NCBI GenBank assembly: GCA_025060475.1
Contig: JANXBZ010000001.1
Location: forward strand, 62,001 to 126,000
Source: Dictyoglomus sp.
GTDB lineage: Bacteria; Dictyoglomota; Dictyoglomia; Dictyoglomales; Dictyoglomaceae
Length of the DNA: 64,000 nt
Reading direction: 5' to 3'
The notes beneath the pieces are model-generated. The model searched no databases. It was not told the origin of the DNA and saw nothing but the letters and a program-made list of their open reading frames with translations. The position numbers were made by a program, and so were the translations under genes. Below, one piece after another: positions 703-18,658 of this stretch (within the stretch, counting starts at the first letter, position 1; each line of letters begins with the position of its first letter).

Positions 703-2023
703 TTCTTGTATTCTTTAAAATAAAAGGAAAAATAATAAGTATCAAACTTAGTATCAAACTAATTTTATAATTTATAAGTATAAATTGCAAACCAGAGAAA
801 AGTATATTTATAAGAAATTCAATAATGGATATTAGGAAAGAAGTGAATGGAAAAATATTCAAGAGAATTAATAAAAATGAAAGAAAAAGAATCAAATGAA
901 AAATTGGAATAGAAAAAAGATTCCCAATGAGAGATAAAATATGAACTCTTTCAAAAAAATAAATATTAAAAGGCATGAGAAAAATAAATAACCAAAAAGA
1001 AGATTTCCATAAGTCTTGATAGTATTTTTTAATTAAGGGAATTTTAAAAGATGGAGTCAATATAAGTCCAAGAGTTGCGAGATAAGATAACTGAAAACTA
1101 ATATTGAAAATATTTAAAGGTGAAAAAATTAGAGAGATTAAACAAACCATAAAGAAAGAATTAATAATATCTTCTTCTCTTATAAAATTTTTTGCTAAGA
1201 TACTATAAAAATACATAAATACTGCCCTCAATACAGGAGGTTTATTTCCAACTATAAAAGCATAGAAAAATAAGAATAAACTTATAACAAACCTTAAATT
1301 TTTAGAATTAATTAAAAAAACTAAAAAACTCACTAATAATGTAATATGAAGCCCAGAAATTGCTAAAATATGTATTGTTCCAGTATTTATAAAAAGATCC
1401 TTTACTTTTTTACTCACAATTCCACTTTCTCCTAAAATAACAGCTCTTAAAAAAGATGAAATTTCAGGTTTACTTAATAATAAAATATTTTTTATATAAT
1501 TTTTAACCCTAATTCTTAATAACTTAAGAAAAGAAAGTTTTTTCCCTACAACTTTAAAATATTTTGTATTTCCAAACAAAATTATTCCTTCCCCCCAAAA
1601 CTTGTAAATATTTTCTCTTCCTACTGGAAATACTTTCAATTCCTCTAGATAAATTATATCTCCTATATTTATCTCTCTATTCTTATCAACTGTGAGAAGA
1701 ATCTTCTCCTTCTCATTAAGAGGTCTAAAGATAACTTCTTTTATCTTTTCCCTTTCTTCTACTTCCTCAACTATTCCCTTAACTTTCTCAAGTTTAAAAC
1801 CTCTAAAATAACTAAATTCTGGAATAGAAGATTTAGAAAGAAAAAATCCTAAAAAAAGGAAAAATAAAAAAAGAGGTGTAAGAAATAAATATTTTTCTTT
1901 GATAAGTATAAGAGAAAAAATAAAAATAGCTAAAAAATAAATTAAATCTCCTCCAATCCTCTGAAGGAAAATCCCACAAATAAAATATATTAAAAAGAAA
2001 AAAGATGGTGGAAGTTTATCCAA
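683..2023 (-). CDS. comEC: ComEC/Rec2-type DNA uptake channel, short form
   Basis: An integral membrane protein of 446 residues with many hydrophobic helices. The first 150 residues match the DUF4131-type soluble region between early helices. From about residue 185 comes the competence domain, with the hallmark stretch around INTGTIHILAISGLHI. ComEC carries single-stranded DNA across the inner membrane during transformation. Many ComEC proteins have a C-terminal metallo-beta-lactamase domain of about 250 residues; this one stops after the last membrane helices and has none. It follows comEA directly (no gap) and overlaps holA, so it belongs to a comEA-comEC-holA unit. The function as a DNA channel is inferred from family and context. 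Confidence 0.9.
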   Translation of the reverse strand: MDKLPPSFFFLIYFICGIFLQRIGGDLIYFLAIFIFSLILIKEKYLFLTPLFLFFLFLGFFLSKSSIPEFSYFRGFKLEKVKGIVEEVEEREKIKEVIFRPLNEKEKILLTVDKNREINIGDIIYLEELKVFPVGRENIYKFWGEGIILFGNTKYFKVVGKKLSFLKLLRIRVKNYIKNILLLSKPEISSFLRAVILGESGIVSKKVKDLFINTGTIHILAISGLHITLLVSFLVFLINSKNLRFVISLFLFFYAFIVGNKPPVLRAVFMYFYSILAKNFIREEDIINSFFMVCLISLIFSPLNIFNISFQLSYLATLGLILTPSFKIPLIKKYYQDLWKSSFWLFIFLMPFNIYFFERVHILSLIGNLFSIPIFHLILFLSFLLILLNIFPFTSFLISIIEFLINILFSGLQFILINYKISLILSLILIIFPFILKNTRNELLGV

Positions 2024-2572
2024 TTACCACTCTATAAGATCTTTTATTTGCTCAATTTTTTTCTTACCAATTCCTCTTACTTTCTCAAGATCTTCTAAAC
2101 TTTTAAATGGACCATTTTGTTCTCTATACTCAACAATTTTCTTTGCCAGAGATGGACCGATACCTGGCAAATTTTCTAATTCTTTCTCAGAGGCAAAATT
2201 AATATTTATCTTGTTATTCGAAAAAACATTTCCTTTTATTGTGGAGGATAATGTGGGAGAGATAAATTTTTCAGGAACTAGTATTTTACTTCCATCTTCT
2301 AAATATTCTGCTAAATTTAATCTATCTAAATCAGCAGAAGGAAGTGCTCCTCCTGCTGCTTGAATTCCATCTATAACGCGAGAACCCTCTAATAATTTAT
2401 ATACTCCAGGATTTGCTACCGCTCCAGCTATATGAACTATTATAAAATTCTCAAAAATTGCTCTTTCTTCTTTTTCTTTTTGATTATTTCGAAAAAGACT
2501 TCCTAATATTAGAATTAGAACTAAAATTATTGAAAAGAATAGAATATATTTTTTATAATTATCTTCCATCAT
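2024..2572 (-). CDS. comEA: ComEA competence DNA-binding protein
   Basis: A 182-residue protein with one N-terminal membrane helix (about residues 8-28), an SLBB domain (about 43-103, with IIVHIAGAVANPGVYKL) and a C-terminal pair of helix-hairpin-helix motifs (about 122-182, with LENLPGIGPSLAKKIVEYR and VRGIGKKKIEQI). This is the classical ComEA layout: a membrane-anchored receptor that binds double-stranded DNA outside the inner membrane and hands it to ComEC, encoded next. The ATG overlaps the stop of ctpA by four bases. Two tandem ATG codons are present, so the start could be one residue later. Confidence 0.92.
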   Translation of the reverse strand: MMEDNYKKYILFFSIILVLILILGSLFRNNQKEKEERAIFENFIIVHIAGAVANPGVYKLLEGSRVIDGIQAAGGALPSADLDRLNLAEYLEDGSKILVPEKFISPTLSSTIKGNVFSNNKININFASEKELENLPGIGPSLAKKIVEYREQNGPFKSLEDLEKVRGIGKKKIEQIKDLIEW

Positions 2573-3831
2573 CCCTTTATTGTAACCTTCTTCCCTTCCT
2601 GGAGCTTTTTGTTACTTAAAGCTATTTGAAGTTTTAATACCTCTATAGCCTTATCTAACTGAATATCTCTCTCTTTTCCTACATTTTCAGGTGCCATTTC
2701 CACAATATAATCAGGAACTATTCCTTCATTATGTATACTTCTCCCTGAAGGAAGTAAATATCTTTCTGTTGTTATTATTAAAGCAGAACCATCGGACAAG
2801 GAAAAAATGCTCTGAACCACACCTTTTCCAAAAGTTTTCTCCCCAACTAATACTCCTTTTTGATAGTCTTTTATAGCTCCAGATAATATTTCTGAAGCAC
2901 TCGCAGAATATCTATTAACCAGAACTACAAGAGGTTTTTCCCAAATCAAATTACCAGTAGCATATTCTCCCCATCTATTTGCATCTCTATCTTCTCTATA
3001 AACTATAACCCCTTTTGATAAGAAGTTGCCTATAATCTTATTATTTTTATCCCTTATAACAGTTTGAACTTGATCTCTATTACTTATAAAGAAACTTGCA
3101 ATCTCTACAGCGGATCTTAAATCACCACCTGGATTATTTCTTAAATCCAAAATTAAACCCGAAATATTATTTCTTTTCATTTTTTCTATAGAGGCTCTCA
3201 ACTTTTCTGGAGAATTTTGTGTAAATTCATAAAATCTAATATAACCAATATTATCTTTTAAAATCTTATCTTCAACAACAGGTGCTTCTATTTTTACTCT
3301 TACCAATTCAAACTCATAAATTTTCTTTTCTGATTCTCTATATATCTTTATTTTTACTTTTTTACCTAACTCTCCTCTAATCATACTTACAACTTCATCA
3401 ATAGTCTTCCCTTCAACAGATTGATCATCTACAGCAATAATCTGATCGCCAGGTTTTATTCCAGCTTTATGAGCAGGTGTCCCTTCTATAGGGGTTACTA
3501 CAAAAATTTTGTCATCTTTTTGCTCCAATCTCATTCCTACCCCATAAAAAGTTCCTTTTATATCTTCACTAAAGGTCTTAAAAGCTTTTGGATCAAGAAA
3601 TCGAGAATAAGGGTCATTAAGCCCTTTAATCATTCCTTTTATTGCTTCATATTGCAATTTAGTATTATCTATATTTTTCTCAATAAAAGCATTTTTAATA
3701 TAAAAAAGCACTTCTAAAAAAGTTTTAATATCTTCATATACTATTTCTCTAGCAGCCCAAATTTTAGTTATGATAAATATAGAAATAACTAGAATAGTAA
3801 GACTTATAATAATCTTTCCTTTACTCTTCAT
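2569..3831 (-). CDS. C-terminal processing peptidase, S41 family (CtpA-like)
   Basis: A 420-residue exported serine protease. It has an N-terminal signal or anchor helix (about residues 7-25), the DPYSRF motif typical of S41A peptidases (73-79), a PDZ domain (about 92-170) and a peptidase core (about 190-370). The catalytic Ser lies in SASASE (309-314) and the Lys is K336 in TFGKG. Such enzymes trim or degrade envelope proteins from the C-terminus. Its neighbours are an EnvC-like factor and FtsX upstream, and CtpA-type proteases are known to control peptidoglycan hydrolases in other bacteria, so a role in wall turnover is plausible but inferred. Confidence 0.93.
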   Translation of the reverse strand: MKSKGKIIISLTILVISIFIITKIWAAREIVYEDIKTFLEVLFYIKNAFIEKNIDNTKLQYEAIKGMIKGLNDPYSRFLDPKAFKTFSEDIKGTFYGVGMRLEQKDDKIFVVTPIEGTPAHKAGIKPGDQIIAVDDQSVEGKTIDEVVSMIRGELGKKVKIKIYRESEKKIYEFELVRVKIEAPVVEDKILKDNIGYIRFYEFTQNSPEKLRASIEKMKRNNISGLILDLRNNPGGDLRSAVEIASFFISNRDQVQTVIRDKNNKIIGNFLSKGVIVYREDRDANRWGEYATGNLIWEKPLVVLVNRYSASASEILSGAIKDYQKGVLVGEKTFGKGVVQSIFSLSDGSALIITTERYLLPSGRSIHNEGIVPDYIVEMAPENVGKERDIQLDKAIEVLKLQIALSNKKLQEGKKVTIKG

Positions 3832-3853
3832 CAGTTTTCTCCTCCTAAAAATT

Positions 3854-4996
3854 TTATTTTAACCAAGATAATGGATCTTGGGGAATTCCATCAACTCTCA
3901 CTTCAAAATGTAAATGAGGTCCAGTACTCAAACCTGTACTTCCTACATATCCTACAATTTGACCTTCACTTACTTGCTCTTCTAATTCTACCACAATTCG
4001 AGAAAGATGAGCATATAATGTTGTTACTCCTCCTCCATGATCTAGTATTACTAGTTTACCGTATCCTCCATACCAATCCGCATAAATAACCTTTCCAGGA
4101 GCCACTGCCTTTACAGGAACGCCATAATCTGCCAATATATCAATTCCTGTATGCATCATATAAGCTCCACCTAAAAGGGGATGACGTCTTATTCCAAAAC
4201 CCGATGTTATAGCTCCAATAACAGGCCATGAAAGTTTCCCTTTTTGGGCTTTTTTCAATCTAGAGGCAGAAGCTAGTCTTCTAATCAATGCCTCAATTTC
4301 CTTTGATTCTCTTTCTAGAGTTGCAATTGTTTGTTGCTGTAATCTTTTCTGTCTTCTTATCTGCTCAAGATAAACACTCTTTTCTTTCTTTTTTCTTTCT
4401 ATATAAGCTTTTTTTTCTTCAATCTCTCTTACCAAGATCTCTATTTTTCTTTTTTCTTCTTCCCATTCCTTTCTTTTTTGAGCTAAATCTTTACATTGGT
4501 TATCTATTTTATCTAATCTCCTAGCCTCACTTTTAAAAATATTTTTAAGATAATAGGGAATTGCTAACAAATCAAAAGCAATTTTGTTTCCCCAGAAAAT
4601 CTCCCAATAATTCTCATTATTACTATTTTCTTTAAAAATTTCACTTAAGGCGATTTTATAATTTAGACTTCTATTTTTCAAATTCCTTTCCATAATTTTT
4701 AACTGAGTAGATATTACTATAAGATTTGCTTGAGCTTGTCCTAATCTTGCTTCCGCATTAACTAATTCTCTTTCTGTTTTTTCTAATTGCTGATCAATTT
4801 TACTTATTTCTCTTGCAATATTTAGTTCTTTAGTCTCTAAAATCTTAACCTGTTCCTTTAATAAAGTTATTTTTTGTTTTTTTTGTTTAAGCTCCTGTTG
4901 TTTCTTAGTCAAAAGGTCTGTAGTCTCTCCTACTTTAAATAAAAAAGATATAAACGATAATATAAAAATAAAAAAGATAATTTTTCTCTGAATCAT
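3854..4996 (-). CDS. EnvC-like murein hydrolase activator, M23 domain
   Basis: A 380-residue protein with an N-terminal signal helix (about 5-22), a long coiled coil of Lys/Glu/Leu-rich helices (about 25-240) and a C-terminal M23/LytM domain (about 258-380) starting near LSWPVIGAITSGFG. Zinc-binding residues of an active LytM enzyme appear present: an HxxxG-type HPLLGG, HTGID and HLHFE. It could therefore be an active endopeptidase and not only an activator. Its start overlaps the ftsX stop by four bases, which fits the known FtsX-EnvC partnership in which the FtsX outer loop controls the coiled coil. The start ATG has a hydrophobic leader right after it. Confidence 0.88.
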   Translation of the reverse strand: MIQRKIIFFIFILSFISFLFKVGETTDLLTKKQQELKQKKQKITLLKEQVKILETKELNIAREISKIDQQLEKTERELVNAEARLGQAQANLIVISTQLKIMERNLKNRSLNYKIALSEIFKENSNNENYWEIFWGNKIAFDLLAIPYYLKNIFKSEARRLDKIDNQCKDLAQKRKEWEEEKRKIEILVREIEEKKAYIERKKKEKSVYLEQIRRQKRLQQQTIATLERESKEIEALIRRLASASRLKKAQKGKLSWPVIGAITSGFGIRRHPLLGGAYMMHTGIDILADYGVPVKAVAPGKVIYADWYGGYGKLVILDHGGGVTTLYAHLSRIVVELEEQVSEGQIVGYVGSTGLSTGPHLHFEVRVDGIPQDPLSWLK

Positions 4997-5808
4997 TCTC
5001 TCAACCTATACCAGCCAATAAAGGCTGATGAAAAACTCAATATTAAGCTAGAAAGGAAAAAGAATAATCCCCAAAGAACAAAATGTCTTATGTTTATAAA
5101 AGAAATATAAGGAAGAATATTCGAAAAATTATCTTTTAAAAAATATAGAATATAATATAAAACAATAAGAGAAGATACAGAGGAAAAGAAAATTGTAAAG
5201 AAATTCTCAAGAATCTGAGATACAATAGAAAAATTAGGAAAAGCCACTTGAGAATGAGCCAAAAGCTCAATAATTATGATAACATAAGCAAGACTTCCTA
5301 TAAGAATAAATATTTTCTTTAGATTATTTGCAATTCTACTTATGTTAAGCCATTGATCTCGAAGCTCTAAAGAATATTTCACCTCCTCGACATTGGGATT
5401 AGATATGAGCCAAGAAACCAAGTCTTCCATTTTCTCAAGAGAATACAAACTTATTTCTAATGCTTTTGGCAGATTAGCAGGGGATACCCAAGCAAAAATT
5501 TCTTTTTCACCTCCAAGAGATTCCTTCAACCTTTTCCAAGCAGTATTTTGATCTATAAAATTTATATTCATTATAGGAAATTGAATTTTAATATCCCTTT
5601 GTATTCTAGATATATTCTCATCAGAAATATTTGACGGAAAAAAAGCATACACTTTAATTCTATCCTGCCATATGGACAGAGAACCATTAAGAGATGTTAT
5701 AAAAAAAATTAAAATAAGAAAAATTAAAAAAAACACAAAAAGACCTATAAACATGAAGAAGCTTTTTTTAGAGAAGCTATACCAACCTCTCCTCAATTCT
5801 TCCCACAT
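4993..5808 (-). CDS. ftsX: Cell division protein FtsX
   Basis: A 271-residue membrane protein with the FtsX plan: a cytoplasmic start, one helix (about 18-42), an extracytoplasmic region of about 110 residues, and three further helices (about 168-188, 200-225, 243-265). The outer region carries the family pattern KVYAFFPSNISDENI, with a later stretch NPNVEEVKYS resembling the usual loop. FtsX normally pairs with the ATPase FtsE and controls peptidoglycan hydrolases. Here FtsE is not beside it; the upstream gene encodes a DUF4321 protein. Downstream lies the EnvC-like gene with a four-base overlap. Confidence 0.85.
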   Translation of the reverse strand: MWEELRRGWYSFSKKSFFMFIGLFVFFLIFLILIFFITSLNGSLSIWQDRIKVYAFFPSNISDENISRIQRDIKIQFPIMNINFIDQNTAWKRLKESLGGEKEIFAWVSPANLPKALEISLYSLEKMEDLVSWLISNPNVEEVKYSLELRDQWLNISRIANNLKKIFILIGSLAYVIIIIELLAHSQVAFPNFSIVSQILENFFTIFFSSVSSLIVLYYILYFLKDNFSNILPYISFINIRHFVLWGLFFFLSSLILSFSSAFIGWYRLRE

Positions 5809-5824
5809 TTTCTCACCTTAAATA

Positions 5825-6070
5825 CTATATACTATAAAAAATTAATACTAAAAGGATTCCAATAGCACTACCCAAATTAAATCTAAGATTTAATCCAAAT
5901 GTCAAGTTTATAAAATAAAGATCTAAAGTCCAAGGAGAAAAACCAATATTTATGCCCTCAGTAAGAATTGGAATTTTGTCTTTTAGAGCCTCTGCAATAA
6001 CCCCTCCAATAATTACACCTAAAATTAATAGGAATATCAGTAATCTTATAGACCACTTATTCCTTCTCAT
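5825..6070 (-). CDS. DUF4321-type small membrane protein
   Basis: An 81-residue protein with two predicted membrane helices (about 8-28 and 64-80). It matches my memory of the DUF4321 family: a GxxxG-rich first helix (ILGVIIGGVIAE), a short outer loop with LDLYFINLTFGLNLRFNLG and a hydrophobic end. No function is known. It overlaps by one base with the stop of the upstream Gx transporter gene and lies 17 bases before ftsX, so it is part of the long operon. The family call is from pattern recall only. Confidence 0.6.
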   Translation of the reverse strand: MRRNKWSIRLLIFLLILGVIIGGVIAEALKDKIPILTEGINIGFSPWTLDLYFINLTFGLNLRFNLGSAIGILLVLIFYSI

Positions 6071-6594
6071 TAATTTCCTCCTAATATAAAGGACAATCTT
6101 TTAATTATCCAATTTGCTAAAATTCCGTTAAAGGTTCCTGTAGTTATAGCAAATATTAATAAAAAGGGAATATAGAAAAAAATACTTTTATGAGAGATAA
6201 AAAAGGATACTATCATTAATTGAGAAATATTATGAGAAAGAGCACCAAGTATACTTATAAAAGTAAGGCTAAGATCCTTCTTATTAAACAAAAAACCCAT
6301 AGTTAAAGCGCTAATTATTCCCCCCATTAAACTTAGAAAAAAAGAAAAACCAAAAAGACCTCCTAATATCATATTCACAATCAATACTCTAAGAATAGAG
6401 ATAATTAATCCTTCTTTTAGACCCCACCAATAAATTCCTATCAAAGTTATTATATTAGCTATTCCAAGTTTTGCTCCTGGAAGCGAAGATAAAGGATTTA
6501 GAAATAATGCTTCTAAATAATATAATATACAAGCAAGAGAAATCATAATTCCTAAAAAAGAAACAAAGTATATTCTATTTTTAAATTTTATCAT
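6070..6594 (-). CDS. Gx transporter family membrane protein
   Basis: A 174-residue protein made almost wholly of membrane helices. The segment LSSLPGAKLGIANIITLIG and the later IISALTMG and GALSHNISQL are typical of the Gx transporter family (once named heptaprenyl diphosphate synthase component I), which is related to small-molecule S-component-like carriers. Genes of this family often lie next to ApbE and Rnf genes, as here: the start overlaps the apbE stop by four bases. A role in supplying a flavin or precursor to ApbE/Rnf is a guess from context; no substrate can be read from the sequence. Confidence 0.7.
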   Translation of the reverse strand: MIKFKNRIYFVSFLGIMISLACILYYLEALFLNPLSSLPGAKLGIANIITLIGIYWWGLKEGLIISILRVLIVNMILGGLFGFSFFLSLMGGIISALTMGFLFNKKDLSLTFISILGALSHNISQLMIVSFFISHKSIFFYIPFLLIFAITTGTFNGILANWIIKRLSFILGGN

Positions 6595-7577
6595 TTTTCT
6601 TCTTCAAAATAAATATTATCAGACTTCCAGATTTTTCCATCCTTTTCTACAATAATTACTCCGACATCTCTAAATTTACTTTTCCAAAGATCCTTTCCTC
6701 TTTCTCCTAAAACAAAAAATAAAGTTGATAAAGCATCTGCAGTAATTCCATTCTTACTTATGATAGTTACACTCATTATTTCCGAAGAAGGAATTCCTGT
6801 CTTAGGATTAATAATATGGGGATATCTTTTACCATTGTTTACAAAGAATCTTTCATAATCTCCCGAAGTAGCTACTACTCCACTTTTAATTTTTATTTTT
6901 CCAATAATTCTTCCTTCTTTTCTTGGATGTTTAATTCCAATTATCCAATAATCTCCTTTTAAAGGCTTACCGTATACCCCAATAGTTCCACCTATATCTA
7001 AATAAACTCTTTGCAAATTAAGATTTTTAGAAATCTCCAAAAGTCTTTGAACTGCATACCCTTTTGCAATTCCTCCTAGATCTAATGACATTCCTTTTCT
7101 TTTAAGTCTCACTTTTCCTTCAGATATTTCTAGATCTTTCCAATTTACTTTACTTAAGGCTTCTTTTAATTCTTTATCGTTAGGAATATACAAACTTCCA
7201 TTATAAAATCCCCATAATTCCATTAGAGGCCCTATAGTTGGATCAAATAGACCTTCGGAAATTTGAGCATAGTATTTTGCTTCCTTAAGAACATCTTCAA
7301 CTTCTTTAGAGACCTCTATCCAATCTCCTGCTTTTTTATTTATTTTATAAACTTCACTTTGGGGATTGAATCTATTTAACTTTTGATCTAGTTCTTCTAA
7401 TTTTTTCCAGCAAATCTCTTTTGCTTTTTCGCTATCCTTTCCCCAAAAATAAATAGTTATAAAGGTATCCATTAGGATACCACTTTTTTGAGCTTCATAT
7501 TTAGAAAAATTCTCCCTTATTAGATAGGCGCCTATTAAGATTATAAATAAAAAAATTAAGCTTTTTAAAACTCTCAT
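6591..7577 (-). CDS. apbE: FAD:protein FMN transferase (ApbE)
   Basis: A 328-residue protein with an N-terminal anchor helix (about 5-20). ApbE moves FMN from FAD onto Thr or Ser of target proteins outside the membrane, using Mg2+. Family patterns seen: GILMDTFITIYFWG near the start, SLDLGGIAKGYAV, YLDIGGT, ATSGDYERFF and PHIINPKTG, then VTIISKNGITADALSTLFFVLG with the metal-binding Asp. It starts at the last base of rnfB, so it is translated with the Rnf genes. Its likely targets are RnfG and RnfD encoded upstream in the same operon, both of which carry flavin-attachment motifs. Confidence 0.95.
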   Translation of the reverse strand: MRVLKSLIFLFIILIGAYLIRENFSKYEAQKSGILMDTFITIYFWGKDSEKAKEICWKKLEELDQKLNRFNPQSEVYKINKKAGDWIEVSKEVEDVLKEAKYYAQISEGLFDPTIGPLMELWGFYNGSLYIPNDKELKEALSKVNWKDLEISEGKVRLKRKGMSLDLGGIAKGYAVQRLLEISKNLNLQRVYLDIGGTIGVYGKPLKGDYWIIGIKHPRKEGRIIGKIKIKSGVVATSGDYERFFVNNGKRYPHIINPKTGIPSSEIMSVTIISKNGITADALSTLFFVLGERGKDLWKSKFRDVGVIIVEKDGKIWKSDNIYFEEEK

Positions 7578-8380
7578 TACTTAGTTTTTAATAGAATTAG
7601 AGCCTTTGTAGGACATTTTTCTACACAAATTCCACATCCATCACAGATTTCATAATTTATCATAGGAAGTCTTCCTTGCATTGTTATAGCCCCTTTTGGA
7701 CATACTCGAGTACATATTCCACAACCAATACAAGCTCTTGAACACACCTGTCTTGCATCAGGCCCAGGTAAAATTGTTTTACATCCTAAAAGTAAAGGGA
7801 TATTAATAGGAAGAAGAGTCAAAATTCCCCTTGGGCATTCCTTAACACATAAACCACATCCCGTACACTTCGTAGAATCAATCTTTGGAAGTCCATCTTC
7901 TCCCATATATATTGCAGAAAAAGGACAGACCATAACACAGTCTCCATATCCAATACATCCATTGGGACATCCTTTCTCTCCTCCCTGAGTTAGATGTGAG
8001 GCCCTACAAGTTTTGATTCCTTTATATATAAACCTATTAACAGCTATTTCCTTTCCACCTTGGCAATTTAAAAAGGCAATATTTTTAGTTATTGTAATTT
8101 CTTCCTCCAAGCCTAAAACTTTTGCTACTTCCTTTGCAACTTTTTCTCCTCCAGCAACACAACCAGTACTTTTAGCTTTCCCTTCTATAATTGCTTGAGC
8201 TAATCCTTCACATCCAGGGTAACCACAAGCACCACAGTTAGTTCCTGGCAAAACTTTTAATATCTCAGAAAGTCTTGGATCAATTTCCACAGCAAATTTT
8301 TTTCCTGCAAAAGCAAGAGTGCTTCCAAAAACTAATCCTATTCCTCCTAATACTAATGCTGCTAATAAGACTATACTCAT
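7577..8380 (-). CDS. rnfB: Rnf complex iron-sulfur subunit RnfB
   Basis: A 267-residue subunit that passes electrons from ferredoxin into the Rnf ion pump. It has an N-terminal membrane helix (about 3-25), then a cluster-binding domain with TNCGACGYPGCEGL (about 46-60), and then several ferredoxin-type Cys groups: GCPNGCIGYGDCVMVCP, CTGCGLCVKECP, CIGCGICTRVCP and CDGCGICVEKCP. This gives more clusters than a minimal RnfB and resembles the form found in clostridia and Thermotogales. It is the last rnf gene and is followed at once by apbE. The call rests on motifs and on the complete rnfCDGEAB order. Confidence 0.96.
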   Translation of the reverse strand: MSIVLLAALVLGGIGLVFGSTLAFAGKKFAVEIDPRLSEILKVLPGTNCGACGYPGCEGLAQAIIEGKAKSTGCVAGGEKVAKEVAKVLGLEEEITITKNIAFLNCQGGKEIAVNRFIYKGIKTCRASHLTQGGEKGCPNGCIGYGDCVMVCPFSAIYMGEDGLPKIDSTKCTGCGLCVKECPRGILTLLPINIPLLLGCKTILPGPDARQVCSRACIGCGICTRVCPKGAITMQGRLPMINYEICDGCGICVEKCPTKALILLKTK

Positions 8381-8393
8381 AATTTCCCTCCTT

Positions 8394-8981
8394 TTAATGT
8401 GCCATTCCTTGGAATCCTAAAAATACAAGAGCTAATAATCCAGAAGTTATAAAAACTAAAGGATAACCTTTCCAAAAATCAGGGATATCTGAAAAAGCTA
8501 ATCTTTCTCTAATAGCAGCTAAAAGAAGAAGAGCAATAGTATAACCCACTGAAACTCCTAAAGAATAAATAATAACTTCCAAAAGATTATAAGCCATATC
8601 TATATTAATAAAAGTTACACCTAAAATAGCACAATTTGTTGTTATTAATGGCAAATATATTCCCATAGCCCTATATAGATAAGGAGAAGTTTTTCTTATT
8701 ACCATTTCCACAAGCTGAACTAATGCAGCAATGACTAGTATAAAGGCTATTATTTTTAAAAATATAAGATTTAAAGGCTGTAATATGTAGTAATATATGA
8801 AAAAAGTCACAACAGAAGCCATGACTGTTACAAAAGTAACAGCAATACCCATTCCTATAGAGGCATCATATTGAGAAGTCATTCCTACATAAGAACATAA
8901 GGCTAAAAATCGCATAAAGACAATATTATCTACTAAGGAAGCAAATAAGAATAATGTAAACAATTTTCCTAAAATTACCAT
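8394..8981 (-). CDS. rnfA: Rnf complex membrane subunit RnfA
   Basis: A 195-residue protein with about six membrane helices. It shows the RnfA/NqrE pattern: LASLVDNIVFMRFLALCSYVG near the start, with the conserved Cys of the first half, and LPLITTNCAILGVTF in the middle with the second Cys, then AIRERLAFSDIPDFWKG near the end. RnfA and RnfE form an inverted pair that holds an iron centre between them in the membrane. It lies 13 bases after rnfE and 13 before rnfB, in the standard operon order. Confidence 0.96.
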   Translation of the reverse strand: MVILGKLFTLFLFASLVDNIVFMRFLALCSYVGMTSQYDASIGMGIAVTFVTVMASVVTFFIYYYILQPLNLIFLKIIAFILVIAALVQLVEMVIRKTSPYLYRAMGIYLPLITTNCAILGVTFINIDMAYNLLEVIIYSLGVSVGYTIALLLLAAIRERLAFSDIPDFWKGYPLVFITSGLLALVFLGFQGMAH

Positions 8982-8994
8982 AGCTTCCTCCTAA

Positions 8995-9633
8995 TTATTT
9001 ATCATGAGGAGTAAATACTTTTTTTGAGATATTCTTCTTAATCTCTTTCATAGACCAGTTTAGTATACCTATCAATAGACCGATCCCCCAAAAAGCCCCA
9101 GGAGGCATAATGAAAGCAAGGGCAGGCTTAAAAAAAGAGGGCATTATAGGAATACCAAGAAGAGTTCCTGATCCTAAAAGTTCTCTTATACCTGCCAAAA
9201 CTGTTATACTCCAAAAGTAACCTATACTCATTCCTAAACCATCAGCTATAGAATTCAGAATATTATTCTTATAGGCAAAGGCCTCAGCTCTTCCAATAAT
9301 AATACAATTAACAACAATTAAAGGAATGAAAATACCTAGAGAATGATGAAGTTCAGGCATATATGCAGACATTACTAAATCAGTTATAGTAGTAAAAGTA
9401 CCAATAACAATAATAAATATAGGAATCCTTATATTGTAAGGTATTATCGGTCTAAGCAAAGACACAAAAATATTTGAAAATATCATCACAAAGGAAAAAG
9501 CAAATCCCATACCAATCCCATTCGCTAAATTTGTAGTAACCGCAAGAACAGAACATAATCCTATCATCAATATTAATACAGGATTTTCTTTAAAAATTCC
9601 ATTTACGAAATTTACCCAAAATTCCCTTGCCAT
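8995..9633 (-). CDS. rnfE: Rnf complex membrane subunit RnfE
   Basis: A 212-residue protein with about six membrane helices, related to RnfA and NqrD. Typical segments are NPVLILMIGLCSVLAVT near the start, IRIPIFIIVIGTFTT, LIVVNCIIIGRAEAFAYKN in the middle and AGIRELLGSGTLLG further on, with the conserved Cys in the two half-helices. It forms the membrane core of the Rnf complex with RnfA. Its position between rnfG and rnfA is the usual one, with gaps of 13-15 bases and a Shine-Dalgarno sequence in each gap. Confidence 0.96.
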   Translation of the reverse strand: MAREFWVNFVNGIFKENPVLILMIGLCSVLAVTTNLANGIGMGFAFSFVMIFSNIFVSLLRPIIPYNIRIPIFIIVIGTFTTITDLVMSAYMPELHHSLGIFIPLIVVNCIIIGRAEAFAYKNNILNSIADGLGMSIGYFWSITVLAGIRELLGSGTLLGIPIMPSFFKPALAFIMPPGAFWGIGLLIGILNWSMKEIKKNISKKVFTPHDK

Positions 9634-9648
9634 AAAAACTCCCCCTTA

Positions 9649-10182
9649 TTAATCCTTAATGACTAAAGCTTCTTTTACAGCTCTTAGTACTGCCCTTGAA
9701 GATATGGTAGCTCCAGTAATAGGTTGAATATCTTTTTTAAGTTCCATATTAGGAGAATTCTTACCAATGAACTGATTTAAAAATTCATCTTTAGTTATTT
9801 CCGCTCCTAAACCTGGTGTTTCTTGTTGAGAAATAATCTTAACTTTTGTGATCTTTCCTAGAGTATCTATACCCACTAAAAGATTAATATCACTACTATA
9901 TCCTCGAATAACTAATTCAACAACTTTTCCAACTTTTTGATTATTATTTTTTCCTTCATATACTCCTATAATTTTAACCATTTTATCTTTAGGTTTAGGA
10001 ATATCACTAATATTATCAAAGTGTTTTGCCAGAGGTAAAATTTCCTGAAGGGCTTGAAGCTTTTCTTTTTCTTTTTGCATTGCAATAATTTTTTGAGTCT
10101 GAATATAAACATAGGCTAAAGCTCCTGCTGCTATAGCACATATTATCATAAGAATCACTCCATAGAGAACTATTTCTTTCAT
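9649..10182 (-). CDS. rnfG: Rnf complex FMN-carrying subunit RnfG
   Basis: A 177-residue protein with an N-terminal membrane helix (about 5-27) and an exported FMN-binding domain. The covalent FMN attachment motif TGATIS is at residues 156-161, with S161 the expected acceptor (Ser in place of the more common Thr). The upstream stretch QQETPGLGAEI is also conserved in the family. ApbE, encoded in the same operon, would attach the FMN. The start overlaps the rnfD stop by four bases. Confidence 0.95.
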   Translation of the reverse strand: MKEIVLYGVILMIICAIAAGALAYVYIQTQKIIAMQKEKEKLQALQEILPLAKHFDNISDIPKPKDKMVKIIGVYEGKNNNQKVGKVVELVIRGYSSDINLLVGIDTLGKITKVKIISQQETPGLGAEITKDEFLNQFIGKNSPNMELKKDIQPITGATISSRAVLRAVKEALVIKD

Positions 10183-11117
10183 TTCTTCACCTCTCCAAAT
10201 TTATGAGGCTTAATACTTCTATCTATTAAAGGTGTAAGAGCATTCATGACTAATATCCCATATGTAACACCTTCTGGATAACTTCCAAATATCCGAATCA
10301 TTAGAGTCAGAAAACCTGCACCAATTCCAAAAATTAATCTACCTTTAGGAGTTAAAGGTGTTGTTACCCAATCGGTAGCCATAAAGAAGGCTCCTAAGAA
10401 AACTCCACCTGATAAAATTTGAAATATTGGATCCTTTCTGAATAACAAAGATAAAACCATTATTGATAGGATATAACTAATTGGAATTCTCCAATCAATT
10501 ATATTCTTGTAAATAAGCCAAATACCCCCAATAAGTAGAAAAAGAGCAGAAGTTTCTCCTATAGATCCTGAAACTTTTCCTATAAATAAATCCCAGTAAG
10601 AAGGTAAAGAATAAGGTAACTTTAACTTTTCTATTGCTAGTGGAGTTGCTGTAGAAACAGGAGTGGCAGAAGTTAATGGGTTTATCCAAGAAGTCATAAT
10701 TACTGGATAAGAGGTTAATAGAAAAGCTCTACCTACCAATGCTGGATTTAAAAAATTCCCTCCTAATCCACCAAAAATTTGTTTTGTTAATATTATTGCT
10801 ACTCCTGTTCCAATCACAGGAATCCATAAAGGAACTCGTGGTGGTAAGGTTAAGGCTAAGAGTAAACCTGTAACCACCGCACTAAAATCTAATAAGCTAT
10901 TTAAAGATTTTCTTCTAATTAAAAGAGCTAATCCCTCCCACATAACTGCGGAAACTATGCTTACAAGTATAACAAACAATGAATAAATACCAAAAAAATA
11001 AATTCCTGCTATAGTAGCAGGAATAAGAGACATAATCACATTTAACATTACTTTACTCACATCTTCATCAGCGAAAATGTGAGGTGAAGAAGATACAATT
11101 AACTCTTTTTCTTCCAT
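10179..11117 (-). CDS. rnfD: Rnf complex membrane subunit RnfD
   Basis: A 312-residue protein of the NqrB/RnfD family with about nine or ten membrane helices. It shows SSSPHIFADEDVSKVM at the start, KQIFGGLGGNFLNPALVGRA in the middle and FMATDWVTTPLTPKGR near residue 245. The stretch VSTATPLA (154-161) fits the flavinylation motif, with T158 the expected FMN-carrying Thr. RnfD lies in the ion path of the pump. It follows rnfC with a 12-base gap and overlaps rnfG by four bases. Confidence 0.96.
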   Translation of the reverse strand: MEEKELIVSSSPHIFADEDVSKVMLNVIMSLIPATIAGIYFFGIYSLFVILVSIVSAVMWEGLALLIRRKSLNSLLDFSAVVTGLLLALTLPPRVPLWIPVIGTGVAIILTKQIFGGLGGNFLNPALVGRAFLLTSYPVIMTSWINPLTSATPVSTATPLAIEKLKLPYSLPSYWDLFIGKVSGSIGETSALFLLIGGIWLIYKNIIDWRIPISYILSIMVLSLLFRKDPIFQILSGGVFLGAFFMATDWVTTPLTPKGRLIFGIGAGFLTLMIRIFGSYPEGVTYGILVMNALTPLIDRSIKPHKFGEVKK

Positions 11118-11129
11118 AGGATATTCCTC

Positions 11130-12440
11130 CTATTTTCTTCGCTTTTCAAAAATCTCAGATTTTGCCATTCTAATCCACTGAACTAAAGGTCTTCTAGAGG
11201 GACAAATATAACTACATGAACCACACTCCATACAATCCAGTGCTCCTTCTTTTTCTGCTAATTCTGTTTTCCTCAAACGAGAATACTCCGCAATAACAGT
11301 TGGAATAAGATTCATAGGACATACATCAAGACATCTTCCACAGCGAACACACGCAAGAGTATCATTGTTCTTTATAAAACTTCGTGGAAAGACTAAAACT
11401 CCAGAGGTTCCTTTTACAATGGGAGTTGCTAGGCTGTAGATAGTTACTCCCATCATAGGACCACCAAATATTACTTTTCCAGGCACATCTGAAAATCCTC
11501 CACATTCTTCTATAAGCTTGAATACTGGAGTTCCAATGCGAACATTAAGATTCTTAGGCTCCTTAATACCCTCCCCTGTTACTGTTACACCTCGCGATAT
11601 TAGTGGTAATCCTGTCTTAAAATGTTCAGCTATTGCACATGCTGTTCCCACATTATTAACTATAACTCCTACATCTAGAGGGAGACCTCCAGAGGGTACT
11701 TCTCTTCCCAAAATAGCTTTTATCAATTGTTTTTCAGAACCTTGTGGGTATTTTGTCTTTAAAACTACTATTTCCATATCTTTTTTTAGATATTTCTTTA
11801 AAATCTCTCCTGCATCCTTTTTATTATCTTCTATGGCAATAATTCCTTTTTTCACCCCTAAAACATACATTAATATCTGAAGACCTTCTATAATCAATTC
11901 TGGTTTCTCTAACATTAAACGATAATCAATAGTTAAATAAGGTTCACATTCTGCTCCATTTAAAATTACAACATCAATTTTTTTTTCAGGAGGTGGAGTT
12001 ATTTTAACATGAGTAGGAAAAGCAGCACCACCTAATCCAACAATTCCTGCCTCTCTTATTTTTCTTCTTATCTCATCAGGAGATAGATTTTCCCAAGAAA
12101 TTGGAGAAATATCAGGAAAAACCTCATCCTTTCCATCACTCTCTATTTCTATTGTTAAAACAGGTTTTCCTGTGGGATGTGGATGAAAACCAATTTTTCT
12201 CACAAATCCTGAGGTAGGAGCATGAATCGGTGACGTCACAAAACTTTGTGCATCCCCAATTTTTTGGCCTTTATAAACATAGTCTTTTACTTTCACTAAA
12301 GGCTGAGCAGGAGCACCTGTATGTTGTTGAGTTGGAATAAAAAATCTTTCAGGTAAAGCGATAGAAGTTATTGGCGAAGATTTTGATAAATCCTTTTTTG
12401 TTGGAGGATGAACGCCACCACGAAAAGTTAAAAAACCCAT
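11130..12440 (-). CDS. rnfC: Rnf complex NADH-reacting subunit RnfC
   Basis: A 436-residue soluble subunit that exchanges electrons with NAD(H). The opening FRGGVHPPTKKDLS is typical, followed by a barrel-like domain, the GLGGAAFPTHVKI stretch of the FMN/NADH-binding part, a SLBB-like region, and two ferredoxin groups near the end (CVRCGRCLDVCP and CMECGSCSYICP). It is the first gene of the complete rnfCDGEAB set. It begins 17 bases after valS with no terminator in the gap, so the set seems to be transcribed with the tig-clpPX-valS genes. Confidence 0.96.
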   Translation of the reverse strand: MGFLTFRGGVHPPTKKDLSKSSPITSIALPERFFIPTQQHTGAPAQPLVKVKDYVYKGQKIGDAQSFVTSPIHAPTSGFVRKIGFHPHPTGKPVLTIEIESDGKDEVFPDISPISWENLSPDEIRRKIREAGIVGLGGAAFPTHVKITPPPEKKIDVVILNGAECEPYLTIDYRLMLEKPELIIEGLQILMYVLGVKKGIIAIEDNKKDAGEILKKYLKKDMEIVVLKTKYPQGSEKQLIKAILGREVPSGGLPLDVGVIVNNVGTACAIAEHFKTGLPLISRGVTVTGEGIKEPKNLNVRIGTPVFKLIEECGGFSDVPGKVIFGGPMMGVTIYSLATPIVKGTSGVLVFPRSFIKNNDTLACVRCGRCLDVCPMNLIPTVIAEYSRLRKTELAEKEGALDCMECGSCSYICPSRRPLVQWIRMAKSEIFEKRRK

Positions 12441-12457
12441 ATATACCTCCTTAATTT

Positions 12458-15100
12458 TTACTCCAACATTTTCATTCTTTCTAACAGTACCTCTTTTTTT
12501 CTTAATAATTCTCTATACTTTTCTCTTTCTTTCTCAATTACATGAGAAGGAGCTTTTTCAATAAAGGATAAATTATTCAACCTTTCTTCTAGATTTTTTA
12601 TTACTCTTTCTAATTCTTCAATTTCTTTATTTATTTTTTCTTTTTCTCTTTCTAAATTTATTAAACCAGAAAGATAGATATAATAACTTGTATTATTTAC
12701 CAATACATGAGCAACATTTTTCTCATAAATCATATGCTCAGATTCTACAAGTTCTATCTTTGCTAAGTTAGTAAAATATCCAGAAAATCCCTTTAAAAGA
12801 ATTTTCTCCTTAATGTTATCAGTAAAGAAAAATACTTTTATTCTTTCAGAGATAGGAATATTAAACTCTGCTCTTAAGGCTCTTATTTTTCTTATAGATT
12901 CTTTTATAAATTCCATATTTATTTCACTTTCTTCGTCAATAAAATCTTCCTCATAATTAGGCCAAGGATTTATCATTATACTTTCTGAATGATAGGGAAG
13001 CTTCTGCCAAATTTCTTCAGTTATAAAAGGCATTACAGGATGTAATAGTAAGAGATTTGTTGTTAACACTTTCCACAAAATAGATTGAGCAATAAGCTTA
13101 CTTTCAGGATCCTCTTTATTAGACAATCTTGGTTTTACTAATTCTATATACCAATCACAAAATTCAGACCAAAAGAAATTGTAAATGGTCTTTACATATT
13201 CACTAAATCTATAATTTTCTAAGTGTTCTGTTACTTCTTTTATTTCTTTTTGAAGTATACTAAGAATCCATTTATCCGAAAGAGATAACAAATGAGCCTT
13301 TAAATCAACTTTAGAATAATCTTTATCCTCCAAATTCATAAGCACAAATCGAGAAGCATTCCATAGCTTATTAGCAAAATTCTTAGTGTTTTCAAAATTC
13401 TCTTCATGAAATCTTAAATCTTGCATCTCTGTACACTGAACTGCAAGGCTAAATCTTGTAATATCCGCCCCATATTTCTCAATAAGCTCTAATGGATCCA
13501 CCCCTGTACCCTTTGATTTACTCATTCTTTTACCTTCCTTTGTAAGAACAGTAGGATGTATATAAACATGATAAAAAGGAACATCCTTTTTAAATTCTAA
13601 ACCCATCATTATCATCCGAGCAACCCAAAGATTAATAATGTCCCTTGCAGTACTCAAAACAGAAGTAGGATAATAGTATTCTAAATCAGGATTTTCCTCA
13701 GGCCATTTCAAAGTTCCAAGAGGCCATAAAGCAGAACTAAACCATGTATCTAATACATCTTCATCTTGTTTTAAGTTCAATGAACCACACTTTTCACAGT
13801 TTTTTGGTGACTCTTCTTTAACATTAACATGTCCACAATCGTTACAATACCATGCAGGAATTCTATGTCCCCACCATAATTGTCGCGAAAGACACCAGTC
13901 TTTTATATTATACATCCAGTCAAAATATATTTTCTTCCACCTATCAGGAATAAATTTAACTTTACCTTCCTCAACTACTTTTATAGCTTCCTTTGCAATC
14001 TCATCCATTCTCATAAACCATTGTTTAGATATTAATGGTTCTATAGAGGTACCACATCTATCACAAGTTGCTAAATCATGAGTATATGGCTCTTTCTTAA
14101 CAAGATAGCCTTTTTGAGTTAATAATTTTTCAATTTCCTTTCTCGCAGAATAAACATCTAATCCCTTAAACTCTCCCGCATTTTCATTCATATAACCTCT
14201 TTCATCTATAACTGTAATAAAGGGAAGATTATGTCTCTTTCCTATTTCAAAATCATCAGGATCATGAGCTGGAGTAACTTTCAACACCCCAGTTCCGAAT
14301 TCTGGATTTACAGCCTTATCGGCAATTATTGGAATTTTTCTTCCTACTAAAGGCAGAGTAACATTTTTACCAATAAAAGATCTATATCTCTCATCTTCTG
14401 GATGAACTGCTACTCCTGTATCTCCCAACATAGTTTCAGGTCGTGCAGTAGCAATTACCAAATAACCTTCTTCCTCTACTAAAGGATATCTTATATACCA
14501 AAGAAAAGATTCTTCTTCAATATATTTGACTTCTAAATCTGAAATTGCAGTCCTACAACGGGGGCACCAATTAATAATTCTCTCTCCCCTATATATATAT
14601 CCTTTATTATAAAGGTCTACAAAAGCTTTTATTACAGCTCTTGAATAAACATCATCCATAGTAAATCTTAGTCTATCCCAGTCACAAGAAACTCCTAATT
14701 TTTTAAGTTGTTCAATTATAGTTTGACCATATTTTTCTTTCCACTGCCATACTCTTTCTAAAAACTTTTCTCTTCCTAAATCCCATCTACTTTTTCCTTC
14801 TTTTAATAATTCTCTCTCCACTACTGCCTGAGTTGCAATTCCTGCATGATCCGTTCCAGGTATCCATAAAGCATTAAATCCTTGCATTCTTTTCCATCTA
14901 ATAAGAATATCCTGAATTGTAGCATTCAGAGCATGGCCTAAATGCAAAGAACCTGTAATATTAGGAGGTGGTAAAACAATGGTAAACGGATTTTTAGTAT
15001 AATCTACATAAGAGTTAAAATATCTCTTCTCTAACCAAAAAGAATACCATCTGTTTTCTACTTTTTTAAAATCATATATACTTGGAAGCTCCTCTTTCAT
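12458..15100 (-). CDS. valS: Valyl-tRNA synthetase
   Basis: An 880-residue class I aminoacyl-tRNA synthetase. Motifs in order: PPPNITGSLHLGHALN (HIGH-type ATP motif, about 40-55), the editing domain with ATARPETMLGDTGVAVHP (about 218-235), Cys pairs of a zinc-type insert, KMSKSKGTGVDP (KMSKS motif, about 520-530), a WNASRF tRNA-binding region and a C-terminal coiled coil of about 65 residues typical of ValRS. The length is normal. It attaches Val to tRNA-Val and edits Thr. It sits between clpX (12-base gap) and rnfC. Confidence 0.97.
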   Translation of the reverse strand: MKEELPSIYDFKKVENRWYSFWLEKRYFNSYVDYTKNPFTIVLPPPNITGSLHLGHALNATIQDILIRWKRMQGFNALWIPGTDHAGIATQAVVERELLKEGKSRWDLGREKFLERVWQWKEKYGQTIIEQLKKLGVSCDWDRLRFTMDDVYSRAVIKAFVDLYNKGYIYRGERIINWCPRCRTAISDLEVKYIEEESFLWYIRYPLVEEEGYLVIATARPETMLGDTGVAVHPEDERYRSFIGKNVTLPLVGRKIPIIADKAVNPEFGTGVLKVTPAHDPDDFEIGKRHNLPFITVIDERGYMNENAGEFKGLDVYSARKEIEKLLTQKGYLVKKEPYTHDLATCDRCGTSIEPLISKQWFMRMDEIAKEAIKVVEEGKVKFIPDRWKKIYFDWMYNIKDWCLSRQLWWGHRIPAWYCNDCGHVNVKEESPKNCEKCGSLNLKQDEDVLDTWFSSALWPLGTLKWPEENPDLEYYYPTSVLSTARDIINLWVARMIMMGLEFKKDVPFYHVYIHPTVLTKEGKRMSKSKGTGVDPLELIEKYGADITRFSLAVQCTEMQDLRFHEENFENTKNFANKLWNASRFVLMNLEDKDYSKVDLKAHLLSLSDKWILSILQKEIKEVTEHLENYRFSEYVKTIYNFFWSEFCDWYIELVKPRLSNKEDPESKLIAQSILWKVLTTNLLLLHPVMPFITEEIWQKLPYHSESIMINPWPNYEEDFIDEESEINMEFIKESIRKIRALRAEFNIPISERIKVFFFTDNIKEKILLKGFSGYFTNLAKIELVESEHMIYEKNVAHVLVNNTSYYIYLSGLINLEREKEKINKEIEELERVIKNLEERLNNLSFIEKAPSHVIEKEREKYRELLRKKEVLLERMKMLE

Positions 15101-15112
15101 AATTAAAGCCTC

Positions 15113-16339
15113 CTATCCTACACTCCTCAATAAGTTCTCCCATGAAAACATTCTACGATTATATACCATCTCAGGGGTTACAATAAATTTCTTGATATTT
15201 AATTTAGGTAATTCATACATTATTTCTAACATAAGTTCTTCCATTACTGCTCGTAATCCCCGTGCTCCCGTCCCCTTTTCTTGAGCTTCTTTTACAACTG
15301 CTCTAAGTGCTTCAACTGAAAACTCCAATTCAATTCCGTCTAAAGCTAGAAGAGCTTGATATTGTTTTACCAAGGCATTTTTAGGTTCAATAAGAATTCT
15401 AAACAACTCTTCATCATCCAAAGGATCTAAAACAGTAACAATAGGAAATCTTCCTACAAACTCAGGAATCATCCCAAATTTTAAAAGATCCTCAGGAAGA
15501 ATTTCCTTTAAGATAGAACTCAAGTTTCTTTTTTTCTTAGGTTCAATTTTAGAACCAAAACCAATATTACTTACATCTAATCTTTTTTCGATAATTTTTT
15601 CAATACCCTCGAAAGATCCTCCTGCTATAAATAGAATATCCTTGGTATTAATCTGAATAAATTCCTGATAGGGATGTTTTCTCCCACCTTGAGGAGGAAC
15701 ATTAGCAATAGTTCCTTCTACGATTCTTAAAAGTGCTTGTTGTACTCCTTCCCCAGAAACATCTCGTGTTATGGAGGGATTTTCAGATTTTCTCGAAATT
15801 TTATCGATTTCATCAATATATATAATTCCTTTTTCAGCTCTCTTTATGTCCCAATTGGCATTTTGAATTAATCTTAAAAGAATATTTTCTACGTCTTCTC
15901 CCACATATCCTGCCTCTGTCAGGGTTGTTGCGTCCGCTATAGCAAAAGGAACCTTTAAAAATTTAGCAAGAGTTTCTGCAAGAAGAGTTTTACCTACACC
16001 TGTAGGACCAATAAGAAGAATATTACTTTTTTGAAGTTCAACATCGCCTCTTAATCTATCTCTGTAAAAGATTCTCTTATAGTGATTATATACAGCAACA
16101 GAAATAACTTTTTTCGCTTTTTCTTGGCCAATAACATATTGATCCAAAAAAGCCTTTATTTCTGAGGGAGTTGGTAATCTAAACTCCTCTTTCACTTTCT
16201 CTTCTTCATTTTGAGAGATTAAATTATGGCAAATTTCTACACATTCATCACATATAAAAACTCCTGGACCTGAAATTATCTTCTTTACTTCCTTTTGAGC
16301 CTTACCACAGAAAGAACATCTTATTTCTTTTGTCCCCAT
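15113..16339 (-). CDS. clpX: ATP-dependent protease ATPase ClpX
   Basis: A 408-residue AAA+ unfoldase. It has the N-terminal zinc domain (CSFCGK and CDECVEIC, residues 9-37), Walker A GPTGVGKT (about 112-119), Walker [11 protein letters not shown], the GRFPIV region and the GARGLRA sensor 2. ClpX unfolds tagged proteins and feeds them to ClpP, encoded just upstream with a 14-base gap. The order tig-clpP-clpX is the classical one. Confidence 0.98.
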
Positions 16340-16353
16340 GACTCACTCCTATT

Positions 16354-16941
16354 TTACAATTTTTTGCTTTCTAAGATTTCATCTATAATTCCATACTCCT
16401 TCGCCTCTTTTGCAGACATAAAGAAATCTCTGTCAGTATCTCTTTGAATCTTTTCTAAAGGTTGCCCTGTATGATAAGCAAGAATTTCATTTAAAGTTTG
16501 ACGAAGCTTCAATATTTCTCTTGTATGAATTTCTAGATCTGAAGCAGGTCCATATATTCCTCCTAATGGTTGATGGATCATAACCCTTGAATTAGGAAGA
16601 GCATATCTTTTTCCTCTATCTCCTGCAGAAAGAAGTATTGCAGCCATACTTGCGGCTTGGCCTACACAGACTGTAGCTACTTTTGGTTTTATATGCCTTA
16701 TGGTATCATATATAGCTAGACCTGCAGAGACTTCACCACCTGGACTATTTATATAAAGGTAAATATCTTTTTCGGGATCTTCGGATTCTAAAAAAAGAAG
16801 TTGAGCTATAACTAAATTGGCAACTTCATCATTAATAGCAGTTCCCAAAAAAACAATTCTGCTTTTTAAAAGTCGAGAGTAAATGTCATAAGCTCTTTCT
16901 CCTCGAGGTGTTTGTTCTATAACTATAGGAATTAAAGTCAT
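16354..16941 (-). CDS. clpP: ClpP protease subunit
   Basis: A 195-residue serine peptidase with the complete triad: S98 in GQAASMA, H123 in MIHQPLGG and D172 in DRDFF. Length and motifs are standard for ClpP, which forms the two-ring proteolytic barrel that works with ClpX. The ATG overlaps the tig stop by four bases, so translation is probably coupled. Confidence 0.98.
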
Positions 16942-18239
16942 TCAGATCCTCCCCCTTCATTTTTCATATTTTCTTCTATCAAAAATTCTTTGACTTTATT
17001 AATAAGTATTCTCTTCCTTAGATCTTCAATTAATCCTTCTCTATTTAAAACTCTCTTTAATTCTTTTACATCTTTATTTTCAGATCTTGCCATTTCTTCT
17101 ATATATTCTTCTAGCTCTTCATCACTTACCTTTATATTCTCTTTTTCAGCAATATAATTTAACAAGTAATCCACTTTGATTCTTGTCTTAGCAGATGATT
17201 TGAGATCTTCAATAAACTCTTCTTCACTTTTTCCAATACTTTCCAAATACTCTTGGAAAGTCTTTCCTTGTCTTTCTAAATCTCCTATTATACTTTTTAA
17301 AGAGGTTTCTACAACTGATAACACCATACTCTGGGGAGGATCTATTTCACTTCTTTCTAAAATTAATTTTAAAATTTCACCAAAAACTCTATCCTTTTCT
17401 CTTTCACGTTTCTCAAGAAGAATTCTCTCTCTTATACCTTTATATAAATCATCAAGTGTTTCATAACCTAACATTTTAGACAGAGTCTCATCACTTATAA
17501 GATCGTAAGCCCAAATCTTTTTAACTCTCCAAATTAAAGGGATAACTCTTCCTGCAAATTTACTATTAGGATAATCCTCAGGAAATTTTGTTTCAATTAT
17601 TTTATGCTCAGCAACCTTCATACCTACAAGTTCTTTTTCTATTTCAGGATTATATTCCCCATTAATTCTTATCCATAAAGGTTCTAGTCTTTCTCCTTCT
17701 TTTGTTTCCCTTTCCACATATACTAGATCTCCCTCTATAACTTCTCTATCTTCTACTGGTTTTAATTTACTATACTTCAATCTTAACTGTTCCATGACCT
17801 TATTTATTTCTTCTTCATTTACCTCAATATTATTCATCTTAATATCAAATCCCTTATATTCACCTATTTTAATCTCCGGAACAATTTCAAGAGAAAAAGA
17901 TATCTTAATTTTCTCATTTTCATTCCAAGATTGAGGTAAATTAAAGATAGGAGACGAGTATGGTTTTATCTTTTCCTTTTCTAAAACAAGTTTATACGCC
18001 TCTCTTGCAGCAATCTTTATAGCCTCAACATAAAAATCCTCACCCAAAAATTTTTCTAAAATTACTCTTGGAGCTTTACCTCTTCTAAATCCGGGGATAT
18101 TAACTCTATGTATTAAATATTTATATGTTTCTTCTAAAACAATTTCCCTCTGAGAAGAGTCTATTTCTAAATCTACTGTTAATATACTTCCTTCTTCTTT
18201 TTTAAATGTATAATTTATTGCTTCTTCTCTGATAACCAT
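16938..18239 (-). CDS. tig: Trigger factor (ribosome-associated chaperone)
   Basis: A protein of about 433 residues with the trigger factor plan: N-terminal ribosome-binding domain with the signature GFRRGKAP, a FKBP-like prolyl isomerase domain (about 150-240) and a helical C-terminal arm. I place the start at 18239 (MVIREEAIN), because the in-frame ATG at 18254 has its GGAGG a few bases downstream, where it would serve as the ribosome binding site for the 18239 start. The FKBP part lacks an obvious strong active-site match, so isomerase activity is uncertain. It heads the long run to holA. Confidence 0.95.
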
Positions 18240-18266
18240 CTTTCTTCCTCCCATAAAATAAATAAT

Positions 18267-18287
18267 ACCTCAGATTCTCTCTGAGGT
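18267..18287 (-). terminator. Hairpin between tRNA cluster and tig
   Basis: On the minus strand an 8-bp stem (ACCTCAGA with TCTGAGGT) with a GAGAA loop is followed by an imperfect T-rich stretch. It could end the tRNA transcript. A TATAAT on the minus strand at 18292-18297 would place a start near 18285, in which case the hairpin would instead sit at the very 5' end of the tig mRNA. Both readings are possible. Confidence 0.5.
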
Positions 18288-18310
18288 CTTAATTATATAA
18301 TCTTTGTTAT

Positions 18311-18385
18311 TGGAGCGGGAGACGGGATTTGAACCCGCGGCCTTCTCCTTGGCAAGGAGACGCTCTACCCCTGAGCTACTCCCGC
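18311..18385 (-). tRNA. tRNA-Gly (anticodon GCC)
   Basis: A 75-base cloverleaf on the minus strand with encoded CCA. The anticodon stem CTCCT/AGGAG encloses TTGCCAA, giving anticodon GCC. The T-arm contains GGGTTTGAACCC. It is the last gene of the eight-tRNA cluster. Confidence 0.96.
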
Positions 18386-18394
18386 ATATAAAAT

Positions 18395-18479: not shown

Positions 18480-18490
18480 ATTAAAAAAGC

Positions 18491-18566: not shown

Positions 18567-18575
18567 ACCCACATA

Positions 18576-18652: not shown

Positions 18653-18658
18653 TTAACT

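Follow-up and report, generated by a model that had tools for sequence, protein, structure and literature searches.

An Rnf operon of Dictyoglomus with its own maturation genes, probably set in an old gene order in varied form

Why should the genes of a respiratory-type ion pump lie in the middle of genes for protein quality control, wall remodelling, competence and the clamp loader, and what are the two small membrane proteins encoded beside its flavin-attaching enzyme? The locus that raises these questions lies in a 64,000-nucleotide stretch from the genome of a heat-loving bacterium, Dictyoglomus sp. (contig JANXBZ010000001.1, positions 62,001 to 126,000; hereafter the window), whose source assembly (G000) comprises 1.72 Mb in 81 contigs. 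Our preferred reading, to which we give a probability of roughly 0.8, takes the locus for an ordinary Rnf operon accompanied by the genes for its maturation. The gene order around it would be an old one in altered form, its cell-shape end having been replaced, and the DUF4321 protein encoded at the end of the unit would belong to the cell-shape side.

Nine open reading frames between 5825 and 12440, all on the minus strand, were assigned from the ORF list and family profiles as rnfCDGEAB-apbE-gx-DUF4321, and the profiles matched all nine families that the earlier note had named from the sequence. Rnf is a ferredoxin:NAD+ oxidoreductase that moves ions, and its six subunits, RnfA, B, C, D, E and G, are encoded together here, each above its NCBIfam TIGR cut-off: rnfC (11130..12440; TIGR01945, 568.8 bits against a cut-off of 245.95, with RnfC_N, Complex1_51K, SLBB and Fer4 domains), rnfD (10179..11117; TIGR01946, 335.2 bits), rnfG (9649..10182; TIGR01947, 133 bits, with FMN_bind), rnfE (8995..9633; TIGR01948, 229.8 bits), rnfA (8394..8981; TIGR01943, 242.3 bits) and rnfB (7577..8380; TIGR01944, 120.8 bits against a cut-off of 68.7, with FeS and Fer4 domains). 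They are followed by apbE, encoding FAD:protein FMN transferase (6591..7577; PF02424, 277 bits, above cut-off), gx (6070..6594; PF07456, 135 bits against a cut-off of 30) and the gene for the DUF4321 protein of 81 residues (5825..6070; PF14209, 54.4 bits against a gathering cut-off of 27). The complex resembles known Rnf complexes in its six subunits, the CDGEAB order, the Fe-S domains and the intact FMN-acceptor motifs, whereas the placement of apbE and gx directly after rnfB is different.

The flanks likewise agreed with the earlier description by their family profiles, valS, clpX, clpP and tig lying upstream (12458..18254, minus strand) and ftsX-like, EnvC-like M23, ctpA, comEA and comEC genes downstream (683..5808, minus strand), followed by holA, inside which the window ends. 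The housekeeping run as such was thus correctly described, but its length had been given slightly short as 17.5 kb; it measures ~18.25 kb when counted from tig (18254) as far as the edge of the window within holA. A tRNA array (18311-18994) lies ahead of tig, and a hairpin between the two (18267..18287, minus strand) is a candidate upstream boundary of the run. Among the six nearest relatives compared (G001-G006, one family with two genera), the order tig-clpP-clpX-valS-rnfCDGEAB-apbE-gx-DUF4321-ftsX-M23-ctpA-comEA-comEC was whole in four (G001-G004, which span both genera), and the pieces on cut contigs of the other two agree with it, with protein identities across the run ranging from 96% down to about 40%. 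The same eight-tRNA array precedes tig in the window, G001, G003 and G004, and parts of it lie on cut ends of G002 and G005; in G003 the run terminates with holA, opposite a convergent rpsT-like gene (both named by eye).

The ftsX-like gene (4993-5808) encodes a protein of 271 residues with an FtsX_ECD domain and lies with the EnvC-like M23 gene, with no FtsE gene adjacent. Its product scores far under the FtsX equivalog cut-offs, and the FtsE profile TIGR02673 gave nothing above cut-off in G000 or G001-G004 (best score, 224.4 against 264.85). Here FtsX may do without the ATPase that usually partners it, or may use a different one.

All 17 junctions from tig to comEC measure between -4 and 22 bases, and such short gaps would fit shared transcription of the run. 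Terminator-like sites (11 observed against 10.2 expected in shuffled sequence) and promoter-like sites (79 against 78.8) were about as numerous as in shuffles, and the scans are therefore uninformative on internal promoters, for or against. Within rnfD lies one strong hairpin accompanied by a T-run (11002-11024), which might have been an attenuator. We rejected this, for the hairpin follows conserved codons and several sister genomes have lost part of it; most likely it arises by chance from the coding sequence.

If the run were a single transcription unit in which selection had tied protein quality control and wall remodelling to energy conservation, the tight junctions would be expected, as would the retention of the order even where protein identity has dropped to about 40%. 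We regard this as unlikely; the promoter and terminator scans lend it nothing, and elsewhere the pieces of the run are found in other combinations. In a Nitrospirae locus (L216), rnfC directly follows tig-clpP-clpX, with no valS among them. In L185, L233 and L248, and also in G019 (folC by eye), valS with a folC-type ligase gene stands ahead of rnfC, and in L185 and L233 it is other genes than in the window that precede valS. The mix of rnf and housekeeping genes looks like an inherited gene order and not like the sign of a functional link.

In our preferred reading, the old order would have been valS(-folC)-rnf-(apbE, eetA, eetB)-DUF4321-maf-radC-mreBCD, and its retention in Dictyoglomota in a varied form, with ftsX-M23-ctpA in place of the cell-shape end, would account for the Rnf unit lying among housekeeping genes. 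The old order fits that of Bacillus subtilis, which we take to be tig-clpX ... valS-folC ... maf-radC-mreBCD-minCD without rnf. The nearest outside match to the Dictyoglomota order is L233, a Caldisericia locus in which valS-folC, rnfCDGEAB, a gene for a 931-residue protein, apbE, gx, mreB and further genes stand in one line (1363-20595). The rnf-eetAB-DUF4321-maf-radC-mreBCD neighbourhood that we found in Clostridia shares the order of rnfCDGEAB, eetB and DUF4321 with the window, whereas Dictyoglomota have ftsX-M23-ctpA at the place of maf-radC-mreBCD. The cell-shape end appears to have been exchanged, probably in the direction from maf-radC-mreBCD to ftsX-M23-ctpA. It counts against our reading that maf, radC and mreB are absent beside DUF4321 in the Dictyoglomota genomes, mreB lying on another contig in G000 and about 300 kb off in G003, so that precisely the genomes examined here lack the cell-shape link. 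In the open-licence literature we found no description of a link of rnf to mreB, radC, valS, folC or maf, and the available part of a study of essential genes in Clostridioides difficile (PMC12548448) does not mention a shared locus; that of PMC6085437 has no bearing on the matter.

The place of DUF4321 in this order was examined in three surveys. The first covered 290 genomes spread over families, with counts made by hand and matches on different contigs taken as misses. DUF4321 was present in 65 of the 290 genomes, 16 of which had no ApbE match, and 59 of the 65 lie outside Dictyoglomaceae. Among these 59, it lay within 10 kb of ApbE in three genomes and of Gx in the same three (G019, G107 and G167). 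Its proximity within 10 kb to rnfD in only one (G212) and to mreB in only seven of the 59 counts against our reading, as does the variety of other genes (mostly named by eye) beside which many DUF4321 genes stand. In the small phylum of G212, DUF4321 is present in six of nine genomes, and rnfB lies in its available flank only in G212 and G071 of these six, one locus (L173) ending at a contig end. In G071, a genome of 1.0 Mb, an extra rnfB lies between ftsZ and DUF4321 (L147, 3397-5921), DUF4321 overlapping the end of this rnfB, and rnfD is on another contig. In four loci from two other families (L112, L113, L121 and L124), DUF4321 lies near or just ahead of genes that look by eye like those of NfnAB, another ferredoxin enzyme.

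The second survey took the best 80 of 564 confirmed rnfB loci, which skews it towards the query and gives Clostridia-type organisms a large share; at least 5 kb after rnfB was present in only 52 of the 80. DUF4321 occurred in 6 of these 80 loci, gx in 21, eetA in 19, apbE in 12 and mreB in 15. All six DUF4321 loci run from rnfB (through eetB in two) to DUF4321 and on to maf and/or radC, with several other genes separating rnfB from DUF4321 in one (L213), and mreB follows wherever the contig continues. Pfam confirmed DUF4321 in the four of these loci tested, and also Maf, RadC, NusG_II and folC-type ligases; the order rnf ... DUF4321-maf-radC-mreB was seen in Fusibacter, Alkaliphilus and other Clostridia loci.

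The third survey covered 149 genomes of the phylum of G058. DUF4321 was present in 65, of which 29 have rnfD, and the two genes share a contig in 20 of the 29. They lie within 10 kb of each other in 13 of the 29 genomes against 0.32 expected (uniform placement, uncorrected for genome relatedness) and within 15 kb in 17, always on the same strand with DUF4321 downstream. The earlier note had stated that its view would be refuted if DUF4321 had no wider link with rnf genes; given these counts the link is real, and it reaches into other phyla, so that the view is not refuted on this point. Among the best-scoring 30 of the 65 DUF4321 loci, 26 have maf/radC/mreB downstream within 1.5 kb. Eighteen of these 30 come from genomes without rnfD, and 16 of the 18 keep maf/radC/mreB downstream, 14 of the 16 with no flavin or rnf gene in the 1.5 kb upstream. 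Because the cell-shape genes stay where rnf is missing, DUF4321 goes primarily with them, and with rnf where rnf-eetAB precede them; its link to rnf looks second-hand. On such loci we also rejected DUF4321 as a protein of Rnf only.

The earlier note had proposed both small proteins as candidates for flavin or cofactor supply. For DUF4321 this would mean an accessory that helps to assemble Rnf or passes FAD from Gx to ApbE, and its position can be read that way: it adjoins gx in Dictyoglomota, G019, G167, G107 and two Alkaliphilus loci, follows rnfB immediately in G212 and G071, and lies close downstream of rnfD in the 13 genomes counted above. Nevertheless, the proposal is unlikely, as the genomes lacking an ApbE match speak against it, and it is left unsupported by the loci in which DUF4321 stays with maf/radC/mreB while rnf and flavin genes are missing. 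A model built from seven sequences (pLDDT 82.9) has a helix at 5-28, four short strands and a helix at 66-80, both helices being predicted to be transmembrane, and as the N terminus is positive, the strands would probably face outward; no solved relative was found by sequence up to E 10 or by Foldseek at E 0.001, and the literature searched contained no paper on DUF4321. In our preferred reading, DUF4321 would most likely be a small protein of the envelope that belongs to the cell-shape side. It is a long shot that it is a cell-elongation membrane protein which works with Maf and MreBCD, is made together with Rnf and the flavin exporter in many anaerobes, and itself links wall growth, physically or by regulation, to the energising of the membrane.

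The FMN-acceptor motifs of RnfG and RnfD are both intact, and we take the acceptor residues within them to be RnfG S161 (codon 9700-9702, in TGATISS) and RnfD T158 (codon 10644-10646, in STATPL), the two residues singled out by the earlier note, which the alignments indeed place at the motif positions. Across 11 aligned rows, RnfG position 161 is Ser or Thr in all 11, being Ser here and Thr in three aligned relatives, and RnfD A157, T158, P159 and L160 are invariant. ApbE has a single match in the whole assembly and a hydrophobic stretch at its N terminus (2-20), which may be an anchor or a signal. Once RnfCDGEAB are made, a membrane-anchored ApbE would attach FMN to S161 and T158 on the outer side of the membrane. 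Flavin attachment to Ser or Thr is described in the available part of PMC9973259.

For Gx the flavin-supply proposal held up. The PF07456 family profile matched RibU 3p5n (E 7.4e-6) as its sole match up to E 1, and a predicted model (pLDDT 92.8, from an alignment that left out the mis-framed row L232) has the fold of an ECF S component, its best Foldseek matches being TmRibU and its first 18 all ECF S components or ECF complexes, among which we count 4huq and 4muu on the assumption that they are such. In the available text of Rivera-Lugo et al. 2023 (PMC9973259), EetB (PF07456) is an FAD-binding ECF S component that is required in Listeria to export FAD for the ApbE-like FmnB, failed to replace RibU in uptake, and adjoins Rnf genes in 572 Clostridia genomes. 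PF07456 formerly went by the name of heptaprenyl diphosphate synthase, and genes so named had already been noted near rnf clusters (PMC7074142, available part). From profile and predicted fold, we conclude that Gx is EetB, the S component of an FAD exporter feeding ApbE, with the direction of transport presumed from the family. That Gx instead imports riboflavin for the cell is very unlikely, for although its nearest solved folds are RibU importers, the behaviour of EetB in Listeria and the adjacency of gx to apbE both speak for export.

FAD would then leave the cytoplasm through Gx joined to a general EcfA-EcfA'-EcfT module, which G000 encodes in one cluster away from the run (ATPases TIGR04520, 361.6 bits, and TIGR04521, 344.8 bits, both above cut-off; T subunit above the cut-off of PF02361, though under that of the CbiQ equivalog). 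Another ECF cluster includes CbiM and is of the cobalt type. The unit had been called self-contained, and Rnf, apbE and Gx do stand together, but this word requires a caveat, as the genes for the A, A' and T subunits lie in another part of the genome. Like the Listeria monocytogenes EetB-FmnA-EcfAA' exporter (PMC9973259, available part), the system has a PF07456 protein with an ECF S fold beside apbE; unlike it, the run has no dedicated T subunit (FmnA) and no EetA (NusG_II) gene, the latter counting against our reading. The available parts of two flavinylation papers (PMC8238504 and PMC11334425) mention neither Dictyoglomota nor FmnA or EetB by name.

Taken overall, the run is ordinary. What had seemed a puzzling mix of genes gives way to a simple account, a known pump with known maturation enzymes in an inherited order, and DUF4321 moves from a flavin helper towards a neighbour of the cell-shape genes.
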